Assembly (NCBI RefSeq): GCF_023734135.1
Contig: NZ_AP025730.1
Span: 4,278,001 to 4,342,000 of the forward strand
Length of the DNA stretch: 64,000 bases
Reading direction: 5' to 3'
From: Sphaerotilus microaerophilus
GTDB lineage: Bacteria; Pseudomonadota; Gammaproteobacteria; Burkholderiales; Burkholderiaceae_C
Notes under the pieces: model-generated
Seen by the model: only the letters and a program-made list of their open reading frames with translations
Database searches by the model: none
What the model was told of the DNA's origin: nothing
Translations under genes and position numbers: made by a program
Part shown: piece by piece, positions 34,412-44,727 of the stretch
Numbering within the stretch: position 1 is the first letter of the stretch
How the letters are laid out: each line of letters opens with the position of its first letter

Positions 34412-34612
34412 TCTGTCGGGGCTCCAGCGCAGGCGGTTGAGCTTACGGCGGATGCTGGCCTTGGATGCCTTGTCCTGCTTGACGAGGTTGAGCACGATGC
34501 GGCGCAGGATGGCTAGGTTGTGCGCGCCGTGGCCGACGCCGAGCCGGCAGTCGTCCTCGCGCAGCAGGACGTCGAGTTGGTTGCCGAAGAGCAGACTCTG
34601 CCCTGCAGTTGC
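34412..34612 (-). pseudogene. C-terminal remnant of an ISAs1-family transposase
   Basis: A minus-strand frame reads LLFGNQLDVLLREDDCRLG, then HGAHNLAILRRIVLNLVKQD and IRRKLNRLRWSPD. This is the conserved C-terminal pattern of ISAs1/H-repeat DDE transposases (E/DD-C-R then a NLAxLRRxALNLLKQD helix). The rest of the transposase is missing: the cassette gene A ends within 13-15 bp of the fragment, and the other end runs into ppsR without a stop. No inverted repeats were found. It is probably a scar of the event that brought in the 34.6-44.1 kb cassette. Confidence 0.6.
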
Positions 34613-34624
34613 AAACGGTGTGAT

Positions 34625-37600
34625 CTACGCGATCAGACCATAGGTGTAGCCTTTGGGAATGCGACTGTCGATGCCGTCGAACCACACGTGCCCGACAGCC
34701 GGCACCTTTACCTGTCTGCGCAGGGCCTCAGTGCCGGTGAACACGTCGAAATGCGCACCGAAGATCGCACCGCCGGTGTCATTGACGACGAACCAGCCGT
34801 CATGCATGCCGATGCCTGGGATCTGCAAGCCGTCGTATTCCTTGATGTAAACCTGCGTACCCGGCGGCACCAGTCCGCCCCTACCTTTCCAGCGCGGCTC
34901 GACGTTGGCGTATTTGGTGGTACCGATGTCGGCTGCCAAGGTGCGGAATGGTTCGTAGGCCACACCACGCGCCATGCCGTAGCCGAGGCCGCGCATGGCC
35001 GGCTCGACGACGTGAAAGGCGAAGGCGCGCACCACCTGACCACTGCTGACAGTGATGCCCGAGTACCGTGTCGACACCGGCTTGCGTCCCTGCTTGGCAC
35101 GTTTCTCGTTGACCTTGGCATAGGCCTTGTTGTGGTACGCCAGCACGTCATCGTAGTCGGCATGGCGCACCGCCACCGTCTTTCCCGTCACGTTGACCAG
35201 CCGGCCATCGGTCAGACGCCCGGTGCCTTCGAGCGAGAGCTTGGCGAAGAAAGCCGGGCCGCCTTCACCGAGGGTGTTGCCCTTGATGTCAACAATGGGG
35301 ATGCGTGCCGCGCCCGTCGGCTCGTCGGCTTGGTCGACTACGTGGTATGTGGTGAGGCGGAACTGACGGTAGGCGCTTGGGTCACTTGGGGGCGTCACAC
35401 CGCTCCGGCGCGCGGGATGATGGCTGTTGGATGACGTTGTCGGTGTGGAGGCAGACGCCCACCGTGCACGCTGCGCCAGCGCGTCCGTCAGCGCACTGCG
35501 TGTGGCAGCGTCGAGCCGTGCATCGGCACCGAGGCCATGACGCGAGCGGAAGTCGGCCAAGGCCTGCTTCGTGCGGTCGTCCAACTGCCCGGGTTGCGAG
35601 AACATCGATTGCTGCGCCAGTTCTTCGAGACCGCGCTGGGTTAGGGCGAGCAACGTGACGTTATCGAGGCCGCCGTGGCCGAGGTTGTGGTCTTCGCGGA
35701 ACCTGGTGACCGCCGCCTGCGTCATGCGACCGAACTGCCCGTCGTCAGCCAGCTTTGCTGCCTGCACAGCGTTCATCACGCGCTGTGCAAAGCGAACCAT
35801 CTCCGCCGTGGCCTTGGCGAAGCTGCCCAAACTCCTGCCGGACGCTGGCGTGGCCGGGGCCGCCGGCACTGTGCCGCTGTCCGGCACTAGGCCGTGGTCG
35901 CGCAGGAACAGCAGGTAGCGCGTCGGGTTTAGAAGCGAGGCCGGCGCGGTCTTGTCGTCTTTCCACCAGCGTTGGGTGGTGGTCGAGCCTTTCACATAGG
36001 TCTCGAAGTGGATCATCGCGGTATCGCTGACGAAGGCGATGGGCTGGCCAGCCACAACGCGCGATCCCACGGCCAGTCCGTGCTCGCTGAGCGAATCGCT
36101 GCGCACCTCGCCGTAGTTCACGACGACCTTCGAGCCGTCGTGCTCGACCATCAGCTTGTAGGTATCCTGCTTCGACTTGGCCTTGTAGAAATGGGAGAAG
36201 GCGACGATGGTGCCGGCCTCACAGGCCACGACCTCGTCGTTCGGGTAGGCGAACAGGTCGACACCGACGTGCCGGCGCGCCACTGTCTTGCCGCCGCGCT
36301 TGCCTTGGCGCGAGGCCATGAACATGCGGCCGCTGCGGCCCGTTATACCTTTTTTCGACTGGTATGACACCACACGCGCATCCTCATGCCGGGTCTTCAC
36401 AGGCCAGTAGCTGCCGCTGGCAGGCTCGGGCGCAAAGGGCACCGGGCTGTCACTGGGCAACTGCAAGGGTGCCGTGTCCGAGACTTCGTCTTCGAGTTCC
36501 GACTCGGCTTCGGCGGCGTCTTCTTCGTCGAACTCGAATTCCACTTCTTCGTCGGTGCCGGCTTCCTCGCTGTCGAACAGGTCTTCGAATTCGCCCTTGT
36601 CGCCTTCTTCGTCTTCCTCGTCGACAAAGTCGTCGGACAGAAGCAATTCTTCGAACTCGTCTTCGCTGTCGGCCTCGAACACCAGCTCGTCGCTCAGGCC
36701 TTCTTCGTCGAAGGCATAGGCTTCTTCGCCCTCGAACTCCAACTCGTCGGCCACCTCATGATCGGAGGTCAGGCCACGCAAAAGCGCGGGCAGGCGCCTG
36801 GCGGGCACGCTGCAGTGACCCTCCTTGCACTGCGTGACGAAAAGGCGGTTGCCGCGCCGCTTGTAGAAGCCGTAGCCGATCGGCTCGGTGCGAGTGCCGG
36901 GTCGGTAGAAGAAGTGCACCTGCAGCCCGGGCTGCGCGGCCAACCATGCCTTCCAGCGGTCGACGCTGCCCGAGTAGGTGGTGTCAAACGCCCACACCTC
37001 GCTGAGCCTGGCCAACGCGCCCTGGCGCATCTGCGGGTCGTCGCGCAGCGCGGCCAGTGGCTCCAGGAAATCGTAAGCACGCGAGTGGCCAGCGACCACC
37101 AGGCTGCCCAGCGAAGAGCCCGTGCCCGGTTGTACTCGGCCCAGCTCCGTCATGACCTCGGCCACCAGCGCGTTCAGGTTCTGCGGGTGGGCCAGTGCAT
37201 TCCAGCGCGGGTGGTCCTTGCCGAAGGCCTGGGCGCCGCCGGGGCGGCCCCAGTCGAGCAGCGGCACTACCAGCACGATGGGGCGATGCGACGCGTCGAC
37301 GATCGCGCCCAGCCCGAACGGGCTGTCGGTCACCATGCCTTCGGGCAGGCTCTTTGGCCGCTTGCAGGCATTGAGCAGGCCGTGGGCATAGACCAGCACG
37401 TCGACCTCCGCCTTCCCGGCTGCGTGTGGCGGGCTGTACACCGCCACGCGGGTGGCGAGCGTTTGTGCGTGGAAGGTCCACAGCTTGCCGCCCACGCCGT
37501 TGGCCACTGGCACCGAAGCAGGGATTTCCGTCGACGAGGGTGTTGCCACTGTTCGGCGCGCGGCGAGCGCATCGGTCAGTGCGCGCCGGGTCGCGGCGTC

Positions 37601-38917
37601 GACCAGCCCACCGAAGCCTAGGCCGTGCTGCGCGCGGAAGGCAGCGACGGCTTGGTCGGTGTTGGAATCCCTGATGCCAACCCTGGCAAAGATCGAGGAC
37701 TGGGCAATTTCCTCGAGTGCACGTTGCGCCAGCGCGAGCGCGGTGCGCGTGTCCAACGCCGAACCGGCGCCTAACTGGTATTTGGTGCGAAAACGCTCGA
37801 GGGCAGCGCGAGTCATGCGGCCCAGATCGCCGTCGTCAGCCAGCCTTTCACCTTCGGCGGCACTCAGCACGCGTTGGGCAAATCGCACCATTTCTGCCGA
37901 TTGTGACGAGGCAGGCGGTGTCGTGGCTCGGGATGCTGACGATTTGGATTTCACCGCCAAACCATGAATTGCCGCGTACCGCTCCATGAAGTCCCTCGAC
38001 GGATTATACTCCCAGTGCCAAGGTTCCATGCGGTACGGATACCAGCCGAATTCACGGGCACGCAACATCATCCACTTGTAGACGGGCGAGCGGTACATGC
38101 GTACCAACATTGCCATCTTTTCATTGGTTCGGGTCTCGTTTCTGAGTGGTTCGAGCCCCTCTACCTCCATGTCCAAATCGACGGCCAAGCCGTACACGTG
38201 TGCCGATCTAAGACCTCCGGCGGCATGCCGATTGGTCTGGCGTGCGGCTATGTCTTTCTGGTGCTCCTTGGTGCGATATGACGACGATATGATCAGCTTC
38301 ACACCCTCGATCGCCGCCGCCTCTCGCATACGTACGAAAGCGTCACATGCTTCCGGGAATAGACGTTCTCCCTTTGTGTTCAGAACCTTCTTGGTAGATG
38401 GATGATCGGGAGGATCAGGGTTTCCGTGCGCATTTGGACGTCGCTCGGGAGTCAACCTCGCCATCGCGGCAAACAGTTCGACCGCGATATTTTTCTTTCC
38501 CTTTTGAGGGAACGCGACGTTGTGCCAATCGACTGTATTCAAATACCTTTCTCGGTCATCCGGAGGTAGACGCTCGATGGCCGAGCGGGCGATGTCCAGC
38601 ACCCAGGCGCGGTCGACTACGCTCAAAGGAGCAGGTGGGTTTTCGGCCTCGAACGCGGGCCCAGTGAAGGCCCCTTCGTCGTCGCCATCGAGTTCTGCCT
38701 CTGCATGCGCATCGCCGCAGCATTCGTCACACTCGCACTCTTGCTCGGCTTCGTCCATCGGCTCGGCCACCTGCTCCGGCAGGCTCAACCGTGCGAACGG
38801 GCTTTCGAACAACAGCTTCGACAGCTGCGGCGACCAATCGGGCTGTGCTTCGTCGCCAGGCGGTTTGACCTCGTGATCGAGAAATGGCGAACCGAAACCG
38901 CCACCCGTGCTTCTCAT
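34625..38917 (-). CDS. Cassette gene A: multidomain M15/alpha-beta hydrolase/M23-like/3D protein with SPF motifs
   Basis: 1430 residues; start at 38917 chosen for GAGGAG six bases upstream (an ATG 21 bp earlier has none). N-terminus: no signal peptide, SPF motifs at 10-12 and 39-41, then CECDECC at 61-67. Residues ~175-310 form a VanY-type M15 peptidase with ligands in SAHVYGLAVD (H240, D247) and EPWH (E298, H301). Residues 341-455 and 1038-1152 are copies of a peptidoglycan-binding-like unit. Residues ~480-715 look like an alpha/beta hydrolase with GHSRA (S612). An acidic linker spans 722-812. An M23-like domain (882-972) keeps H883, D887 and H970 but lacks the assisting histidines. Residues ~1310-1415 are a 3D double-psi barrel with D1330, D1380 and D1391. 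Likely a cell-wall-acting protein; the function is inferred. Confidence 0.85.
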   Translation of the reverse strand: MRSTGGGFGSPFLDHEVKPPGDEAQPDWSPQLSKLLFESPFARLSLPEQVAEPMDEAEQECECDECCGDAHAEAELDGDDEGAFTGPAFEAENPPAPLSVVDRAWVLDIARSAIERLPPDDRERYLNTVDWHNVAFPQKGKKNIAVELFAAMARLTPERRPNAHGNPDPPDHPSTKKVLNTKGERLFPEACDAFVRMREAAAIEGVKLIISSSYRTKEHQKDIAARQTNRHAAGGLRSAHVYGLAVDLDMEVEGLEPLRNETRTNEKMAMLVRMYRSPVYKWMMLRAREFGWYPYRMEPWHWEYNPSRDFMERYAAIHGLAVKSKSSASRATTPPASSQSAEMVRFAQRVLSAAEGERLADDGDLGRMTRAALERFRTKYQLGAGSALDTRTALALAQRALEEIAQSSIFARVGIRDSNTDQAVAAFRAQHGLGFGGLVDAATRRALTDALAARRTVATPSSTEIPASVPVANGVGGKLWTFHAQTLATRVAVYSPPHAAGKAEVDVLVYAHGLLNACKRPKSLPEGMVTDSPFGLGAIVDASHRPIVLVVPLLDWGRPGGAQAFGKDHPRWNALAHPQNLNALVAEVMTELGRVQPGTGSSLGSLVVAGHSRAYDFLEPLAALRDDPQMRQGALARLSEVWAFDTTYSGSVDRWKAWLAAQPGLQVHFFYRPGTRTEPIGYGFYKRRGNRLFVTQCKEGHCSVPARRLPALLRGLTSDHEVADELEFEGEEAYAFDEEGLSDELVFEADSEDEFEELLLSDDFVDEEDEEGDKGEFEDLFDSEEAGTDEEVEFEFDEEDAAEAESELEDEVSDTAPLQLPSDSPVPFAPEPASGSYWPVKTRHEDARVVSYQSKKGITGRSGRMFMASRQGKRGGKTVARRHVGVDLFAYPNDEVVACEAGTIVAFSHFYKAKSKQDTYKLMVEHDGSKVVVNYGEVRSDSLSEHGLAVGSRVVAGQPIAFVSDTAMIHFETYVKGSTTTQRWWKDDKTAPASLLNPTRYLLFLRDHGLVPDSGTVPAAPATPASGRSLGSFAKATAEMVRFAQRVMNAVQAAKLADDGQFGRMTQAAVTRFREDHNLGHGGLDNVTLLALTQRGLEELAQQSMFSQPGQLDDRTKQALADFRSRHGLGADARLDAATRSALTDALAQRARWASASTPTTSSNSHHPARRSGVTPPSDPSAYRQFRLTTYHVVDQADEPTGAARIPIVDIKGNTLGEGGPAFFAKLSLEGTGRLTDGRLVNVTGKTVAVRHADYDDVLAYHNKAYAKVNEKRAKQGRKPVSTRYSGITVSSGQVVRAFAFHVVEPAMRGLGYGMARGVAYEPFRTLAADIGTTKYANVEPRWKGRGGLVPPGTQVYIKEYDGLQIPGIGMHDGWFVVNDTGGAIFGAHFDVFTGTEALRRQVKVPAVGHVWFDGIDSRIPKGYTYGLIA

Positions 38918-38973
38918 GGAAGTCTCCTCTACCGTCACGCAGATGGGTCAGCAACTGCGCAGGTTGAGCAACG

Positions 38974-40071
38974 TCAGTTCGTCGCGACCTTTCGGGCCTT
39001 CACGTCACGGCCGGTGATTGCCGTCCAGTGAGTGATGATTCGGCGCATCGCCGCCTCGGGGCTTGTCGCTACGCCGGCGGGCGTATACAGCGCAGGCACC
39101 GCAGCTTCGTCGTCAAAGTCACCGGTTTCGATCTGGATCAGGATGCGCGAAATGGCATCGGCGATGTCGAAGAAGTGCTTCGAGAGGCCGTGCGCCGGCA
39201 AGCCCACGCGCTCGGCGATCTTGAACAGGCGCTGCTCGGTGCCGTTGGCCTCAGCACGCAGAGACTTCACGATGGGCGAGTTGTCGTTGGTGTTGGTGTA
39301 TTCCAGCGTCATGTGGAACCAGGCCATTGCCGACACCGCAGCGAACTCTTCACGCGCTAGGTTGCCGTTCTGCCGGCGCGACAGCAGCATGTTCTTCAGC
39401 TTGCTGGCCAAGAGCGCAATCTTGGACGGGTCGGTCGGATTGCTGCTGGACGTTGCCGTCACGTAGGTCATGCCAACCCAGGCCTCGCGCAACAACTCTT
39501 CGAAGGTCGAGACGAAGTCGTTGTTGGCGGCTTCGGCGCGCACGTATTCGTAGGGCTTACCGTCGTCGGTGCCATGGTTCAGCTCCATGGCGAACATGCG
39601 CTGGTAGGGGTTGCGCCGGCTGCCACGCAGGTCGCGGCGGATATGGCTGGTAACGGAGCCGATGAAGAAAGGTGCACCGTCCTTGAAGAACAGCTCTTCG
39701 GTATTACGCAACCAAGCTTGGGCCTCTGCGGTGGGGGCACCAAGTTTTTCGCCGTGAAGCAGTTCATCGACTACACGCCGAAAGATCTCGTACACGCGCG
39801 TGTTCTCGACCATGTAGGCGTAGATGAGGTGGTCCCAGCGGAATCCGCTCCCCCCGGCGAGGAGCGGACTTAACGCGCCCAACGGAATCGGCTTTCCTGT
39901 TGGAGACGGCATTGCCTGTAGGTTGCTCCGGCGGTCAGGGTCGCCGAGTGACTTCGTTAGAGTGTCGTCAATGCGTCGCCGCCATACCTCTTCGAGCAGC
40001 CAGGCTAAAACGGCGGGATGGGCCTCGAAGAGAACATCGGGGTGGACGTTGGTGGCGAATTGTCGAAACAT
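38974..40071 (-). CDS. Cassette gene B: uncharacterised 365-residue protein
   Basis: Start MFRQFATNVHPDVLFEAHPA with GGAGA 11 bases upstream. I do not recognise the family. The sequence looks soluble and mostly helical, rich in Trp and Arg near the N-terminus (AWLLEEVWRRRIDDTL), with DHLIYAYMVENTRVYEIFRR and a C-terminal helical region HFFDIADAISRILIQIETGD. No signal peptide, transmembrane segment or catalytic motif is seen. It sits 56 bp upstream of gene A and 79 bp after gene C on the same strand, so it belongs to the cassette operon; a structural, adaptor or chaperone role is possible. Confidence 0.8.
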   Translation of the reverse strand: MFRQFATNVHPDVLFEAHPAVLAWLLEEVWRRRIDDTLTKSLGDPDRRSNLQAMPSPTGKPIPLGALSPLLAGGSGFRWDHLIYAYMVENTRVYEIFRRVVDELLHGEKLGAPTAEAQAWLRNTEELFFKDGAPFFIGSVTSHIRRDLRGSRRNPYQRMFAMELNHGTDDGKPYEYVRAEAANNDFVSTFEELLREAWVGMTYVTATSSSNPTDPSKIALLASKLKNMLLSRRQNGNLAREEFAAVSAMAWFHMTLEYTNTNDNSPIVKSLRAEANGTEQRLFKIAERVGLPAHGLSKHFFDIADAISRILIQIETGDFDDEAAVPALYTPAGVATSPEAAMRRIITHWTAITGRDVKARKVATN

Positions 40072-40150
40072 GATGTTGTCTCCGATCGTTTATCGGGCAT
40101 GGGCTTCCAAGTTCGCTGGTCCGGGTACTGACGTCGACCGAGCTGTCTTC

Positions 40151-40390
40151 TTAGGGTTTGTCAGCCAGAGTTTTCAGGTCAGCCGCGATGAGCTGGTAAT
40201 GACTGACCGCTGCAGCGGCCTTGCCTTTGAGGACGACATTGCTCTTGACTTCGAGGTTCACGTTTCGTAGCAAGTCAATCAGCGCCTTCGTCAGCTCTGA
40301 CGTTGGCGGGGCGTCAATCGATTGCGCCACCTGGATACTCTCGATCGCCGCGGATGTGTCGCTGCTAGTGCTGTGGCTTTGGCTGGGCAT
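40151..40390 (-). CDS. Cassette gene C: small uncharacterised protein (79 aa)
   Basis: Starts MPSQSHSTSSDTSAAIESIQ with AGGAG nine bases upstream. A Ser/Thr-rich N-terminus of about 30 residues is followed by two predicted helices (SELTKALIDLLRNVNLEVK and AAAAVSHYQLIAADLKTLAD). No known family is recognised. Its small size and position between two large cassette genes suggest an accessory or protective partner, which is speculation. It lies 36 bp after gene D. Confidence 0.7.
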   Translation of the reverse strand: MPSQSHSTSSDTSAAIESIQVAQSIDAPPTSELTKALIDLLRNVNLEVKSNVVLKGKAAAAVSHYQLIAADLKTLADKP

Positions 40391-40426
40391 GGATGATCTC
40401 CTGTGAAGAAGTCGGTCGAAGGAAAT

Positions 40427-41719
40427 TCAGGCGGTCTGAAGCGCCCCACCGAGTCGCAACATTGCTTGCTCCTGCCTTTCCAGGATGGCTTTCACATCGT
40501 GCGGGCGCACGGCAAGCTGCAGGCCGGTCAGGCTCAAGATGCGCAATGGCTCGGTCCATAGCCAGTGGGCCGAGGTGAACAGCGCCGGGCCGATGGTCGA
40601 GTCGAGTTCGTTCAATGCCGCCGGGCTGACCCGCTCGGGCGGAATCAGCGCGCGCAGAGGTCGGCCAGCAAATGCCCGCATCGGCGCGTCCAGCACCAGG
40701 CGAACTACAGCATTCAGCAGCGGCATCGAGTCAGCCACGATTGCACGTGTTTCGGTCGGCGCGTTCTGCAGCGGGTGCAGGTCTGTCCACGACAGCGCCA
40801 GCGCATCCCATGGGCCTTCGCCATAGCAGTGGCGGCACATTGCAGCACCGAGCAGCACACGCAGGTAACTGATGGGGTGCGGATCCCCAGGAGAAAAGCG
40901 GAACACCATTGACTGGTCTCCGGCCAACACATCGTGCAAGGCGGCGAGACTGGCGAAGCCTGTGTGGGCAAAGGCAAAACCATCGGCCGCGATCTCGGAT
41001 GCCCAGCCGGCCCAGATCTCGGCCAGCTCGCCCTTGGCGCCGGCCTGACGCAGGCCGGTGGCCAGCACCGCAGTCAGCTCGTCGTTCCAGTGGGTGATGT
41101 GCGCCACCTGGTGCCCGGCCTCGTGGATTAGTGCAGTTGGCCGCAGCAAGTTGTGGCGCGTGACCTTGATGACGGCAACCGGGCAGGCCTTGCCGCCGTC
41201 CCACAGCCGCAGGCCGGCTTTCAGGATGGATGCGCCGAGTCCCTTGTCAAGGTAGGTCAATGCGACCGGAGCGGTCTTGCCTAGCTGGTCGAGCAACTGG
41301 GCCATGCTGCGATGGGCAAGCGTGTCACAGGCGCGCAGCAGGCCTGCGATGTGACGGTTGGTGCGCACGCCGATCGCGTCGGCAAAGAAGTCGAGCGTGG
41401 TCTCGGAGCGCAGGTATTGGCGGCGAAACGCCAGCAGCCGGTGACGTACCTCGGCCCGAGCAGTGGGGCTCCGCGCTTCGTCGTTCATTGTGGTGAGCAC
41501 GCGGGCGTCGCTCATCAGGCTGTCGATCGTTCCCTGCAGGTGGCGACGCAGCGAGATGCCGAGGTACTGCTCGAGATGGCTCCACGCTTCTTGTGATGCC
41601 AGATCGTCCAGGTTCAGCCGCCACGCAGCAAGTACCCAGTGGGCCACCTGACGATCGGTCTGCGAGCCGACGGCGCTTTGCAGGTCAAACACAGCGGTGG
41701 CCCGGGAAGACGTCGACAC
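40427..41719 (-). CDS. Cassette gene D: HEAGH zinc metallopeptidase-like protein
   Basis: 430 residues from the GTG at 41719; a second in-frame GTG at 41692 overlaps the gene E stop (GTGTTTGA) and may be the true, translationally coupled start (421 aa). Neither has a clear ribosome binding site. The zinc motif is LIHEAGHQVAHITHWN with H199, E200 and H203, and the probable third ligand is E242 in WASEIAADGFAF, a gluzincin layout. The N-terminal ~150 residues are helical and Arg-rich. No signal peptide or membrane segment is seen. I cannot name the peptidase family. It overlaps gene E by up to 35 bp. Confidence 0.8.
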   Translation of the reverse strand: MSTSSRATAVFDLQSAVGSQTDRQVAHWVLAAWRLNLDDLASQEAWSHLEQYLGISLRRHLQGTIDSLMSDARVLTTMNDEARSPTARAEVRHRLLAFRRQYLRSETTLDFFADAIGVRTNRHIAGLLRACDTLAHRSMAQLLDQLGKTAPVALTYLDKGLGASILKAGLRLWDGGKACPVAVIKVTRHNLLRPTALIHEAGHQVAHITHWNDELTAVLATGLRQAGAKGELAEIWAGWASEIAADGFAFAHTGFASLAALHDVLAGDQSMVFRFSPGDPHPISYLRVLLGAAMCRHCYGEGPWDALALSWTDLHPLQNAPTETRAIVADSMPLLNAVVRLVLDAPMRAFAGRPLRALIPPERVSPAALNELDSTIGPALFTSAHWLWTEPLRILSLTGLQLAVRPHDVKAILERQEQAMLRLGGALQTA

Positions 41720-44126
41720 GCACGGTGGGCCGTGTGCTGGCAGCTGCCGGCACCGCCACAGCGCCGGGCCTGCCGTGCTCGACCATTGCTTGCGCCAATT
41801 CTTTGAGGCCCGGCGGGTGCTCGATGGTGAAGCTCAGGCTCACGCCATCATCTGCGTTCTCGGTGGCTGCAACGAAGCGTGCGCCTTGCGTCTTGACGAA
41901 CTCGGCAAAGCCTTGCACCAGCCAGCCTTGCAGCTGCGATGCGAACGCTTGCGAGGCGCCGGTCGGCAGGTTGTTCAAAGCGGCGCCAGCCGATTGCCCT
42001 GGGCGTTGGCCGGCGTGGATCAACCGAAGGCGACAGTCTGCGTCACCCGAAAAAATGCGCTTCAGCCGTGAGGCTATCGCGCGCTGGAAGCCGGCTGCCA
42101 GCTGCCCCAGGTTGGTCGACTGACGCAGCCGCACTGCGAGCTTCTGCGCCGTTGCTTCGCTGAAAAATACGCAGGTGCGCACCTGGTCCTGCTGCGCGTC
42201 GAGGCGGATCCTGACATGCAGCAGGCGCCGCAGGTGTGCGCGGTGATGGTGGCCGCTGCCGGATGCGAACAGGGGCCGCTTGCCAGGAATCGCGAGGTGG
42301 AACAGCCTCTGCCCTGCTGCGAGACTGCCGCCTGGCGACGCTGCTGGCGAGAGGCGCCCCAGCCCAGGCTTGCCCAGCAACACTGCTGCGGCCTGCGGCG
42401 TAAGCGGGTGCAACTGCGACGCGTTGACCTCGTCGCTTAGGCCTGGGCCCATTACTGCCCGCTCCGCACGTGCAATGTCACCGAGCGTGGTGCCCGGCAG
42501 GGTCTCGTACAAGTGCACTTGCGCGTCAACTTCGCCGCCTTCAGGCACGCTAAGCAGGTCTTGCAGGTATTCGGACAGTGGTGCACCTTCGAAGCTTTCA
42601 ACCTCATTCGCCATGTACGGAGAGATGCGCACCGTGAACACCTGCGAGCAGCGCTTGTAGCGCTTGCGCCCGCGCAGCGGCAACATCACCCAGGCGGCGT
42701 TAACACCGCCTTCCAGAAGCTCGGGCCGCTTGCGGTAGGTGCTTTCGGAGAACACCGCCGGCAGGTTCGCAGCGGCGGCCTGCTCAAAGGCTTCGAGTGC
42801 ATAGCCTTCCAGCAGCTCTTGGTTGTCGAGCACGTAATCGGGCAGCGAGGCGACACGGCTCACCATCTCCTCGACCGTCGAGGCCACCGCTGACGACGCG
42901 AGTTCGGCTTCATCAGACTCCGACATCTCCAGGTTCATGAGCTTCAAGCCAGCGTCGACCATGGCCCGCGACAATGCCGGCGCCTGCGCGGGGCCGATGA
43001 GGTTGGCGATCAGTTTGGCGACCAGTGGAGCCAGGAAGCCGATCACCCGCGGACGCCCAATCAGCCGGATGCCGAGCTTGAGCGCCGGCAACACAGCGGG
43101 CAGAAAGTTCTGCACATAGGGCTCCGCGCTTTCGCCTTGCTTAAGGTCGTTCAACTCGTTGATGAACTGCGCGCGTGCGTCGTCGAGCTCGGCGAACACT
43201 GGTGCACCTGAAGCAGATGTGGTCTCGATCGCTTGGGCTGTTTCCATTTCGAGCTCGATTTCGTCCTGCGACAGGAAAGCGCTTGCAATCTGCTGGTCGA
43301 ACTCTTGCTGCGGTGAGACGCCTTCGGCTCCGGCCACGTCCTGCACAGGTGACCCCGCGTCGGCTGCAGCAGGGGCCTGCAACGCTGCCGGCACAGCCAC
43401 TGGTGCGGACTTAGGCGCAGCAAAACCGAGCTTTTCGGCCAGCTTTTGCGCCACGGGTTGAACAGCCAATGGCAGGTAGCCGATGGCTCGTTGCAACACT
43501 CGATTGAGCAACGGCTTGATCAGCGCCTTCAGCTTTCTAAGGATGGGGCCAAGCCCGATCTGCTTGATGCCCTTCCAAGCCTTGCCAGCAGCCGACTTGA
43601 CAACTTTCCCGAGCTTCTTGGCTAGGCTACCAAAGAAATTCTCGAACTCGGGAGCGAGGTTCGATCCAGGTGTGTATTCGTCGAGGAACGAGTCGACCTC
43701 GTTATCGACGATGCCAGCCCCTTCGCGCGGTCCGAAGCGGTGCGCCACGCTGTCGACTACATGCTCCAACTCGTGAATCAGCGGCGCAAAGCGTTGCATC
43801 ACCAACCGGTCGGCTTCGGCGCGCGGCATGTCGGCGGCCAGTTGCTCATCGTGCATTGACCGGGCATGACACTGCAGTTCGAACAGGGCCTCATCGAATT
43901 CGTCGTCGTGCAGTTCGTTAATCAGTGCGGCATAGGCTTCACGCACCGGGTCTTCATAAGGGCTCTCCCCTTCAAGGACCTCATAGACCGACATGAAGGG
44001 CGAACGGGTTGCGAGCGCAGCCGACCGAACAGCGGCGGGAACTTCCGAACCTACTTCGACGGTGAAGCTGTCGAACGGCAAGAAAGGTGAGCGTGGAGCG
44101 GCAGTGCCACCGATATCGAGCGTCAT
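41685..44126 (-). CDS. Cassette gene E: large SPF-motif protein with HELEH site and cationic amphipathic blocks
   Basis: 813 residues; start at 44126 with AGGAG eight bases upstream. The N-terminus has SPF motifs at 13-15 and 42-44 and SPY at 55-57, with no signal peptide. Residues ~60-150 hold a putative zinc site LIHELEHVVDSVAHRF (H118, E119, H122), followed by NEVDSFLDEY, as in some DUF4157-like metallopeptidases. Residues 166-235 are an Arg/Lys-rich amphipathic block (for example LAKKLGKVVKSAAGKAWKG). A second basic hydrophobic block covers about 338-400 (RPRVIGFLAPLVAKLIANL). The remainder is unassigned. First gene of the cassette operon. Membrane activity is suggested by composition only. 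Confidence 0.8.
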   Translation of the reverse strand: MTLDIGGTAAPRSPFLPFDSFTVEVGSEVPAAVRSAALATRSPFMSVYEVLEGESPYEDPVREAYAALINELHDDEFDEALFELQCHARSMHDEQLAADMPRAEADRLVMQRFAPLIHELEHVVDSVAHRFGPREGAGIVDNEVDSFLDEYTPGSNLAPEFENFFGSLAKKLGKVVKSAAGKAWKGIKQIGLGPILRKLKALIKPLLNRVLQRAIGYLPLAVQPVAQKLAEKLGFAAPKSAPVAVPAALQAPAAADAGSPVQDVAGAEGVSPQQEFDQQIASAFLSQDEIELEMETAQAIETTSASGAPVFAELDDARAQFINELNDLKQGESAEPYVQNFLPAVLPALKLGIRLIGRPRVIGFLAPLVAKLIANLIGPAQAPALSRAMVDAGLKLMNLEMSESDEAELASSAVASTVEEMVSRVASLPDYVLDNQELLEGYALEAFEQAAAANLPAVFSESTYRKRPELLEGGVNAAWVMLPLRGRKRYKRCSQVFTVRISPYMANEVESFEGAPLSEYLQDLLSVPEGGEVDAQVHLYETLPGTTLGDIARAERAVMGPGLSDEVNASQLHPLTPQAAAVLLGKPGLGRLSPAASPGGSLAAGQRLFHLAIPGKRPLFASGSGHHHRAHLRRLLHVRIRLDAQQDQVRTCVFFSEATAQKLAVRLRQSTNLGQLAAGFQRAIASRLKRIFSGDADCRLRLIHAGQRPGQSAGAALNNLPTGASQAFASQLQGWLVQGFAEFVKTQGARFVAATENADDGVSLSFTIEHPPGLKELAQAMVEHGRPGAVAVPAAASTRPTVRVDVFPGHRCV

Positions 44127-44326
44127 GGGGTCGTCTCCTGATACGCAATGCAGGATTGAAATTGCACAATGAACGTTATCGTCGCGTCCTCAGTCGTAAG
44201 GACGCTGCTGCGGGCAGGTTTGGGAATCAGCATGGAAACAAGCTGCAGTTATCTGTCCACATGTTGCTAGTCGGCCCCTCTTCCCAAACAAAACAGCACG
44301 CGACAAACACACATCGTGGTCGCAGG

Positions 44327-44342
44327 GCCTAGATTTCTAGGC
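44327..44342. promoter_or_regulatory. Perfect 16-bp palindrome upstream of the cassette
   Basis: GCCTAGATTTCTAGGC: two 7-bp arms around a TT spacer, about 200 bp before gene E. It could be an operator for an unknown dimeric regulator or a short hairpin. No regulator gene is seen in the cassette. Confidence 0.4.
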
Positions 44343-44567
44343 ACGGAGCCTCGAAAATGAGTCCAGCGACTTTCTACGCGATCATGAAACTCGGGGCTGC
44401 CGCCGCAAGTGACTAAAGTCATCGAGCGCCCGCAATACACCCAGCCATTGCATGCAACCCCGCCCCTCAGAACGACTGCATCACCCGAGAGAGTTGATTC
44501 GTGGCAGACCGGAATTGACAGGAAACCTCAGAGCTCTTGGCGATCATGGCTTAGCTTCGTTTCTAAT

Positions 44568-44652
44568 CAGGTGACCGAATCGACGACCCAAGTGCCGGTG
44601 CTGCAGGAATTCGAGGAACTGAAGGATCCAAGGCAGCCGGATCGGCGCCCGC
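44568..44652 (+). pseudogene. Possible N-terminal remnant of an ISAs1-like transposase
   Basis: A plus-strand frame reads VPVLQEFEELKDPRQPDRR, resembling the N-terminal LLxxFxxLPDPRRP motif of ISAs1/H-repeat transposases. Similarity is lost after this motif. It would lie opposite in orientation to the remnant at 34412-34612. Weak call based on one short motif. Confidence 0.25.
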
Positions 44653-44727
44653 AACGGGGCAGTTGCCGGCATGAGGTGAGGCCGTTGCACGCGAGGGGCG
44701 GGCAGTTGCCCGTGCAGATCGGCGCCG

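Follow-up and report, generated by a model that had tools for sequence, protein, structure and literature searches.

The window analyzed here is a stretch of 64,000 nucleotides of the Sphaerotilus microaerophilus genome (NZ_AP025730.1, positions 4,278,001 to 4,342,000). It harbors five consecutive ORFs on the minus strand, designated A, B, C, D and E, which are flanked by a PpsR-like and a TrmH-like gene (names taken over from an earlier, sequence-only reading of this DNA). The ORF coordinates agree with that reading, which had placed five consecutive minus-strand genes between ppsR and a TrmH-family gene. The features discussed below are the following:

41685..44126, minus strand: gene A, 813 aa; the N-terminus is disordered and bears two SPF motifs, acidic helical blocks alternate with cationic ones, and the C-terminal region is alpha/beta
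44082..44090, minus strand: SPF motif 1 of A; at least one motif occurs in the first 100 aa of 26/28 A homologues
43995..44003, minus strand: SPF motif 2 of A; P43 and F44 are invariant in the A alignments
43422..43652, minus strand: segment of A (residues 159-235) that is cationic and amphipathic, with a net charge of +12; same sign in 46/46
40427..41692, minus strand: gene B, probably 421 aa; predicted zinc metallopeptidase with a gluzincin-like signature
41111..41125, minus strand: HEAGH of B; H, E and H invariant in 28/28
40982..40996, minus strand: EIAAD of B; its E and D are invariant, and it is presumed to provide the third zinc ligand
40151..40390, minus strand: gene C, 79 aa, between B and D
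38974..40071, minus strand: gene D, 365 aa; highly conserved, all-helical
34625..38917, minus strand: gene E, about 1430 aa; exchangeable payload
38882..38890, minus strand: SPF motif 1 of E, read from the sequence
38795..38803, minus strand: SPF motif 2 of E, read from the sequence
38000..38365, minus strand: VanY/M15 domain of E (Pfam, E-value = 2.1e-10, 40.9 bits against a cut-off of 25)
35984..36274, minus strand: M23-like domain of E (Pfam, E-value = 3.2e-6, 27.7 bits, just below the cut-off of 28.7)
34724..34873, minus strand: 3D domain of E (Pfam, E-value = 2.1e-7, above the cut-off)

Two of the start codons differ from those assigned before. B had been given 430 aa from position 41719, while its start is probably the GTG at 41692, 8 nt within A, because 21 of 28 loci have a start codon at the same position relative to the end of A. 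For E, the ATG at 38917, preceded by AGAGGAG, is probably the start instead of the GTG at 38938.

The cassette occupies a site that is variable within the genus. TrmH and PpsR are separated by 10.3 kb in the genome of the window (interval 34412-44727), and in 7 of the 12 congeners searched their matches lie only 12-63 bp apart, representing the empty site. Elsewhere the distance is 457 bp (G012), 4.3 kb (G002 and G008) or 6.1 kb (G005), and in G004 the two matches are found on separate contigs. The inserts of these congeners are unlike that of the window, consisting of a 1439-aa ORF (G002, G008), four ORFs (G005) and a 137-aa ORF (G012). Besides its own genome, 59 relatives were searched for gene A and all lack it, and the most plausible reading of the cassette is that of a foreign insert at a site that accepts inserts. 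Regarding possible vehicles, no D homologue was confirmed in viral contigs and none was present in 72,556 plasmid records or in 50,697 phage records. As an observation on the genus itself, the TrmH-PpsR interval is an insertion hot spot, where four congeners (L048-L051) carry differing inserts (0.46, 4.3 and 6.1 kb).

A profile of D run against 84,980 species genomes retrieved 33 loci, 13 of them labelled MAG. Their hosts are spread patchily over Proteobacteria, Acidobacteria, Nitrospira, Cyanobacteria, Bacteroidota, Verrucomicrobia, Myxococcaceae, Actinobacteria, Paenibacillus and others, and include the archaeon Methanosarcina sp. MSH10X1. By tblastn, B was detected in 32 and A in 30 of the 33 D loci with order and strand kept; A, B and D occur together in 30 of them, the misses (L007, L016, L023) being at contig ends, and in L011 A is fragmented into pieces. 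D is single-copy in all 31 carrier genomes searched, a set composed of the window's genome and those of all loci except L007, L008 and L023 (30 of 33). For A, B and D, matrices of pairwise identity over 25 members show correlations of 0.67-0.78, a level reached by none of 999 permutations, so that the three genes co-diverge as judged from their sequences. In the protein collection, at least 552 homologues of A and 1529 of D were found at E <= 1e-3. The Methanosarcina carrier (L004) is taken as truly archaeal, since an archaeal replication factor C large subunit and CDC48 are encoded within about 30 kb of D on the same contig; a relative of methanogenesis marker 16, with a score under the cut-off, lies within the same distance. 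These results bear out the suggestion of a co-transferred set: in the search for neighboring homologues across genomes that had been proposed along with it, A, B and D were neighbors in unrelated phyla. The fixed set of five genes described earlier did not hold, given that the constant part is A-B-C-D, while E is exchanged between loci; on sequence grounds E is a variable payload outside the conserved core.

The position of C is conserved rather than its sequence. In 31 of the 32 loci having both genes, B and D are separated by an ORF of 45 aa or more; the exception is L006, whose B-D gap of just 53 bp has no C ORF. The sequences at this position share no conservation across lineages, and some of the ORFs may be there by chance. 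By eye, the gene varies by lineage, with an IPT/TIG-like stretch in L016 (1681-2151) and an FN3-like stretch in L007 (1240-1752).

Searches with profile and structural methods yielded no identifying match for A, B and D in Pfam, NCBIfam, PADLOC, PHROGs or PDB. Specifically, none of the three had a Pfam match at E <= 0.1; NCBIfam and PADLOC returned nothing for A-D and PHROGs nothing for A-D of the window, while no PADLOC family was assigned to any of the five proteins. A description of the cassette was not encountered among the literature matches listed, going by titles and abstract openings, with subscription journals and most preprints outside that scope. The earlier statement that no system of this composition has been described is consistent with the family, structure and literature searches, and its recommended profile search has now been carried out with no identification of A, B or D. 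Several weak library matches were judged to be chance, because few members share them. For B these were LNT_N (3 of 28 members, best value 0.00072) and the PDB entry SRN2 (0.0055); for A, a designed ice-binding protein (0.003), PF24987 in one homologue (2.2e-6) and phrog_38122 in one of the three homologues scanned (1.9e-4); for D, Rv2175c_C in one of 27 members (0.0044).

HExxH followed by ExxxD, with a glutamate ligand, is the signature of gluzincin-type zinc peptidases. In B the residues H199, E200, H203, E242 and D246 (HEAGH...ExxxD) are invariant in 28/28 sequences, EIAAD is presumed to supply the third zinc ligand by analogy with this signature, and B is predicted from its sequence to be a gluzincin-type zinc metallopeptidase. 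Two HExxH proteins had been claimed for the cassette: the HEAGH of B stands, while the HELEH of A is lost in the homologues aligned. As HELEH is not conserved, A is not a metallopeptidase on present evidence. Some close or partial loci, e.g., L003, L008 and L032, are omitted from the alignments A3-A5.

Protein A is characterized by its pattern of charges. In the window its cationic segment 159-235 is flanked by the acidic blocks 58-158 (-17) and 272-345 (-13), and the alternation is retained in 46/46 A sequences, which are acidic at 58-158, 272-345 and 403-475, cationic and amphipathic at 159-235 (+8 to +32), and hydrophobic with a mildly positive charge at 346-402. On a simple charge-pattern score, 28 of 29 A proteins obtain 9 or more, as against 4 of 169 other ORFs with 8 or more (maximum 13). 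The model of A has a mean pLDDT of 75; helices make it up as far as about residue 466, an alpha/beta region follows, and no PDB fold stands out from its structure comparison. The cationic segment may be structural, since it is predicted to be helical inside a packed bundle. A putative LysM-like register spotted by eye at residues 525-620 received a P of about 0.01 and a probability of 2% by hhalign, LysM is not among the Pfam families listed, and the register is kept as a lead. Ahead of both cationic blocks of A stand similar motifs of the Phe/Glu or Asn/Phe kind, FENFFG (residues 161-166, 43629-43646) and QNFLP (residues 339-343, 43098-43112), which are possible processing sites. D was modelled with a mean pLDDT of 93 as an almost wholly helical protein, and no convincing PDB match was obtained for it; a fold like that of TIPE-type lipid carriers is a tentative candidate. 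By a crude hydropathy criterion, a Sec-type hydrophobic N-terminus was present in 0/29 A proteins and 0/22 payloads tested.

The payload of the window is a predicted peptidoglycan hydrolase, its catalytic VanY domain being over the family cut-off. It additionally has three PG_binding_1 domains above the Pfam cut-off. M15, alpha/beta-hydrolase, M23-like and 3D modules had been proposed for E; M15 and 3D were recovered over their cut-offs, the M23-like domain fell just under it in the window and is above it in the homologous E of L002 and L003, and no alpha/beta-hydrolase was detected at a Pfam E <= 0.1. Across the collection, a same-strand gene is located downstream of D in 27 of the 33 loci (counting an untagged SIR2 gene in L027, which is probably no payload, and excluding the small ORFs of L022 and L030), with spacings of -38 to +108 bp among the 25 loci for which they were measured. 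No payload was recognized behind D in L017, L018, L022, L023 and L030, and L008 ends within D. A scan of 27 payload-slot proteins, including that of the window, revealed 16 with a peptidoglycan-active or -binding family above the Pfam cut-off, namely VanY/M15 types, M23, SLT, phage lysozyme, M74, NlpC/P60, Amidase_6 (together with VanY) and PG_binding. The remaining ones are three trypsin-like proteins, one OmpA (L024), the SIR2 of L027 and six with no family over the cut-off, one of which is truncated. The recurrence of peptidoglycan-active domains among unrelated payloads upholds the earlier emphasis on wall-directed modules, and the trypsin-like and OmpA payloads suggest that the wall may not always be the target. 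The Methanosarcina payload combines DUF2272, PG-binding and SLT domains. Tandem payload genes follow D in L016 (3417-7165), encoding an M15 peptidase and an SPF-tagged 647-aa protein with no Pfam match.

Apart from their neighborhood, A and the payloads share a short sequence tag. The motif [S/T]P[F/Y] occurs within the first 100 residues of 22/26 payloads and 26/28 A proteins, compared with 8/214 other ORFs of at least 200 aa from the same loci (Fisher 1e-20 for payloads vs. other ORFs). The 26 payloads are those of the window and 25 loci, with the near-duplicates L024/L025 and L031/L032 and the doubtful L027 counted (its match at residue 89 is probably chance) and with those of L003 and L016 left out; the second payload of L016 sits among the control ORFs as one of the eight, and, ORFs having been called mechanically, some controls are surely not genes. 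Two copies, spaced by 12-42 residues, are present in 10/26 payloads and 20/28 A proteins, often with an acidic stretch after the tag, and the motif is rare in the core partners B (2/32) and D (2/33). Being common to A and the payload, the tag ties the payload to the core independently of gene order. When a tag profile was run over the window's own genome, E was the sole match; the profile is insensitive, as it missed the tag of A itself. A region-based search returned no tagged proteins beyond the query.

We tentatively read the cassette as a laterally transferred antibacterial system, composed of a constant core of A, B, a small C and D and of an exchangeable payload E downstream of D; judged on sequence evidence, this falls a little short of an even chance. 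More doubtful is the wider proposal that the cassette represents a type of weapon not described before, used among bacteria and by archaea on bacteria. Its mobile core of four genes would use the SPF tag to draw exchangeable payloads to a complex with A, which would be membrane-active but masked by itself until the zinc peptidase B unlocks it, and delivery would require neither a classical secretion signal nor a contractile machine. Recruitment, cleavage, membrane action and target are what we infer here. Through the tag, A and the payload would meet at a common partner, either D or B; A and/or the payload would then be trimmed by B; the amphipathic segments of the unmasked A could disturb a target membrane, and the wall hydrolase or other payload would thereby reach its target. 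Release would take place through lysis of the producer or some exporter, given that A and the tested payloads have no Sec-type N-terminus. Methanosarcina-type archaea have no murein of their own, so the Methanosarcina payload, having no substrate in its host, would most simply act on bacteria, and its target would be foreign. This agrees with the reported killing of bacteria by secreted archaeal peptidoglycan hydrolases (PMC12352652). We count against the weapon reading the trypsin-like and OmpA payloads, the 6 of 27 payload-slot proteins with no family over the cut-off, the five loci where no payload was recognized behind D, a possible structural role of the cationic segment, the 4 of 169 other ORFs that reach a charge score of 8, and the fact that unsystematic inspection recognized neither an immunity gene nor an exporter.

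Antimicrobial precursors activated by proteases offer a parallel for the proposed masking, as they too have acidic segments beside a cationic amphipathic one and a protease encoded alongside; A differs in being an 813-aa multidomain protein with no sequence relative detected among them, and its cleavage is putative. Antagonism based on a protease and a precursor is reported in haloarchaea as well (PMC12893001). With lysostaphin, enzymes of the zoocin A type and the archaeal Woldo and Danwoldo (PMC12352652), the cassette shares a wall hydrolase with peptidoglycan-binding modules directed against other species, and an archaeal occurrence. However, Woldo and Danwoldo have Tat signal peptides, whereas the cassette payloads have no Sec-type signal and the hydrolase is accompanied by a conserved A-D core. 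Three conserved families with no identifying match in the libraries searched travel together through many bacterial phyla and one archaeon with a mostly wall-directed payload. If the weapon reading is true, this would be a new kind of modular weapon, whose payload slot would be a catalogue of new antibacterial enzymes and membrane-active peptides and whose short sorting tag is open to testing; whatever its function, the unit gives a shared context to many unannotated “hypothetical proteins.”

An unlikely alternative, though one with a real chance, is a device for self-lysis or release, in which A would act as a holin that opens the membrane of the producer itself and E as an endolysin that cuts its wall, either releasing something or causing abortive infection. 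The amphipathic segments of A, the missing Sec-type signal of A and E and the peptidoglycan hydrolases in the payload slot would all fit. Holin-endolysin cassettes and type 10 secretion likewise combine a candidate membrane-active protein with a wall hydrolase and have no signal peptide, but they differ from the cassette in its extra peptidase B, conserved D, non-hydrolase payloads and a murein-free archaeal host. The Methanosarcina carrier would have no murein to cut, which weakens the “lysis device” suggested earlier, and the trypsin-like and OmpA payloads, the absence of D homologues from the viral, plasmid and phage collections searched and the lack of any PADLOC match also argue against it.

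Rather less probable is a housekeeping or nutritional role, with the enzymes recycling the host's own envelope or digesting dead cells. Wall remodelling commonly involves M15, M23 and amidase domains, and three of the four upstream genes scanned are regulators. Set against this role are the patchy distribution, the single copy in 31/31 genomes and the absence from 59 relatives, together with payload exchange, the archaeal carrier and the shared tag. The regulators observed directly upstream of A on the same strand are of the LuxR type in L021 (5317-6126) and L015 (4943-5707) and of the AraC type in L017 (4870-5601), which suggests regulated expression.

We consider it improbable that A-D ready tagged payloads for loading into eCIS particles; lineage-matched controls took away much of the raw co-occurrence, and what is left of it keeps this reading as a rival. 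The marker PF14065 is found in 17/31 carrier genomes and the tube protein PF06841 in 18/31, the window's included, and PF14065 is more frequent among carriers than among relatives pooled (70/216, p = 0.025). For the window's genome and two Rhizobacter the comparison is 3/3 vs. 15/99 relatives (p = 0.005), for groups chosen afterwards and with the also positive Nitrosomonas G075 outside the group of three. However, little enrichment is left in lineage-matched comparisons with known carriers removed and the cassette status of controls not scored (Bacteroidota 4/6 vs. 34/57, Actinobacteria 5/11 vs. 21/60), and PF14065 is missing in 14/31 carriers, some of which are incomplete MAGs. In none of the 31 genomes did PF14065 or PF06841 lie less than 40 kb from D on the same contig; among the 17 positives, the nearest markers are at 41 and 126 kb (Rhizobacter) and 967 kb (the window's genome). 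No tag was present in the ORFs called in the eCIS cluster of the window's genome, and no N-terminal PVC-metallopeptidase (DUF4157-type) was matched by Pfam or NCBIfam in A, B or the payloads scanned.

The polymorphic toxins of PVC-SS/eCIS described by Zhang et al. (2012; PMC3482391) resemble the cassette in having a constant trafficking part and a variable toxin part with an HExxH metallopeptidase, PVC-type toxins likewise combining such a peptidase with variable toxins, and in a patchy spread reaching euryarchaea and OmpA and wall-directed toxin domains. In the cassette, however, the peptidase is a separate gene with an HEAGH...ExxxD signature and no Pfam family, and the payloads bear a short tag instead of a peptidase domain, with no contractile genes near D. 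The PVC toxin layout is the nearest published idea by analogy, yet two of its defining features, the peptidase domain and the contractile neighborhood, were looked for and not found, and the cassette is not filed as an eCIS module.

Anti-phage defence, with B and D sensing infection and A/E killing the infected cell, is highly improbable, as the patchy distribution and hot spot location which favor it are countered by five proteins with no PADLOC match, mostly wall-directed payloads and an archaeal carrier. Finally, the eCIS cluster of the window's genome, located at G000:C1:3350-3382 kb (L036, L037), contains Pvc16_N, two T4_gp19 tube proteins and, by eye, two sheath-like ORFs, and it ends in a 1387-aa ORF which by eye resembles a DUF4157-type toxin.
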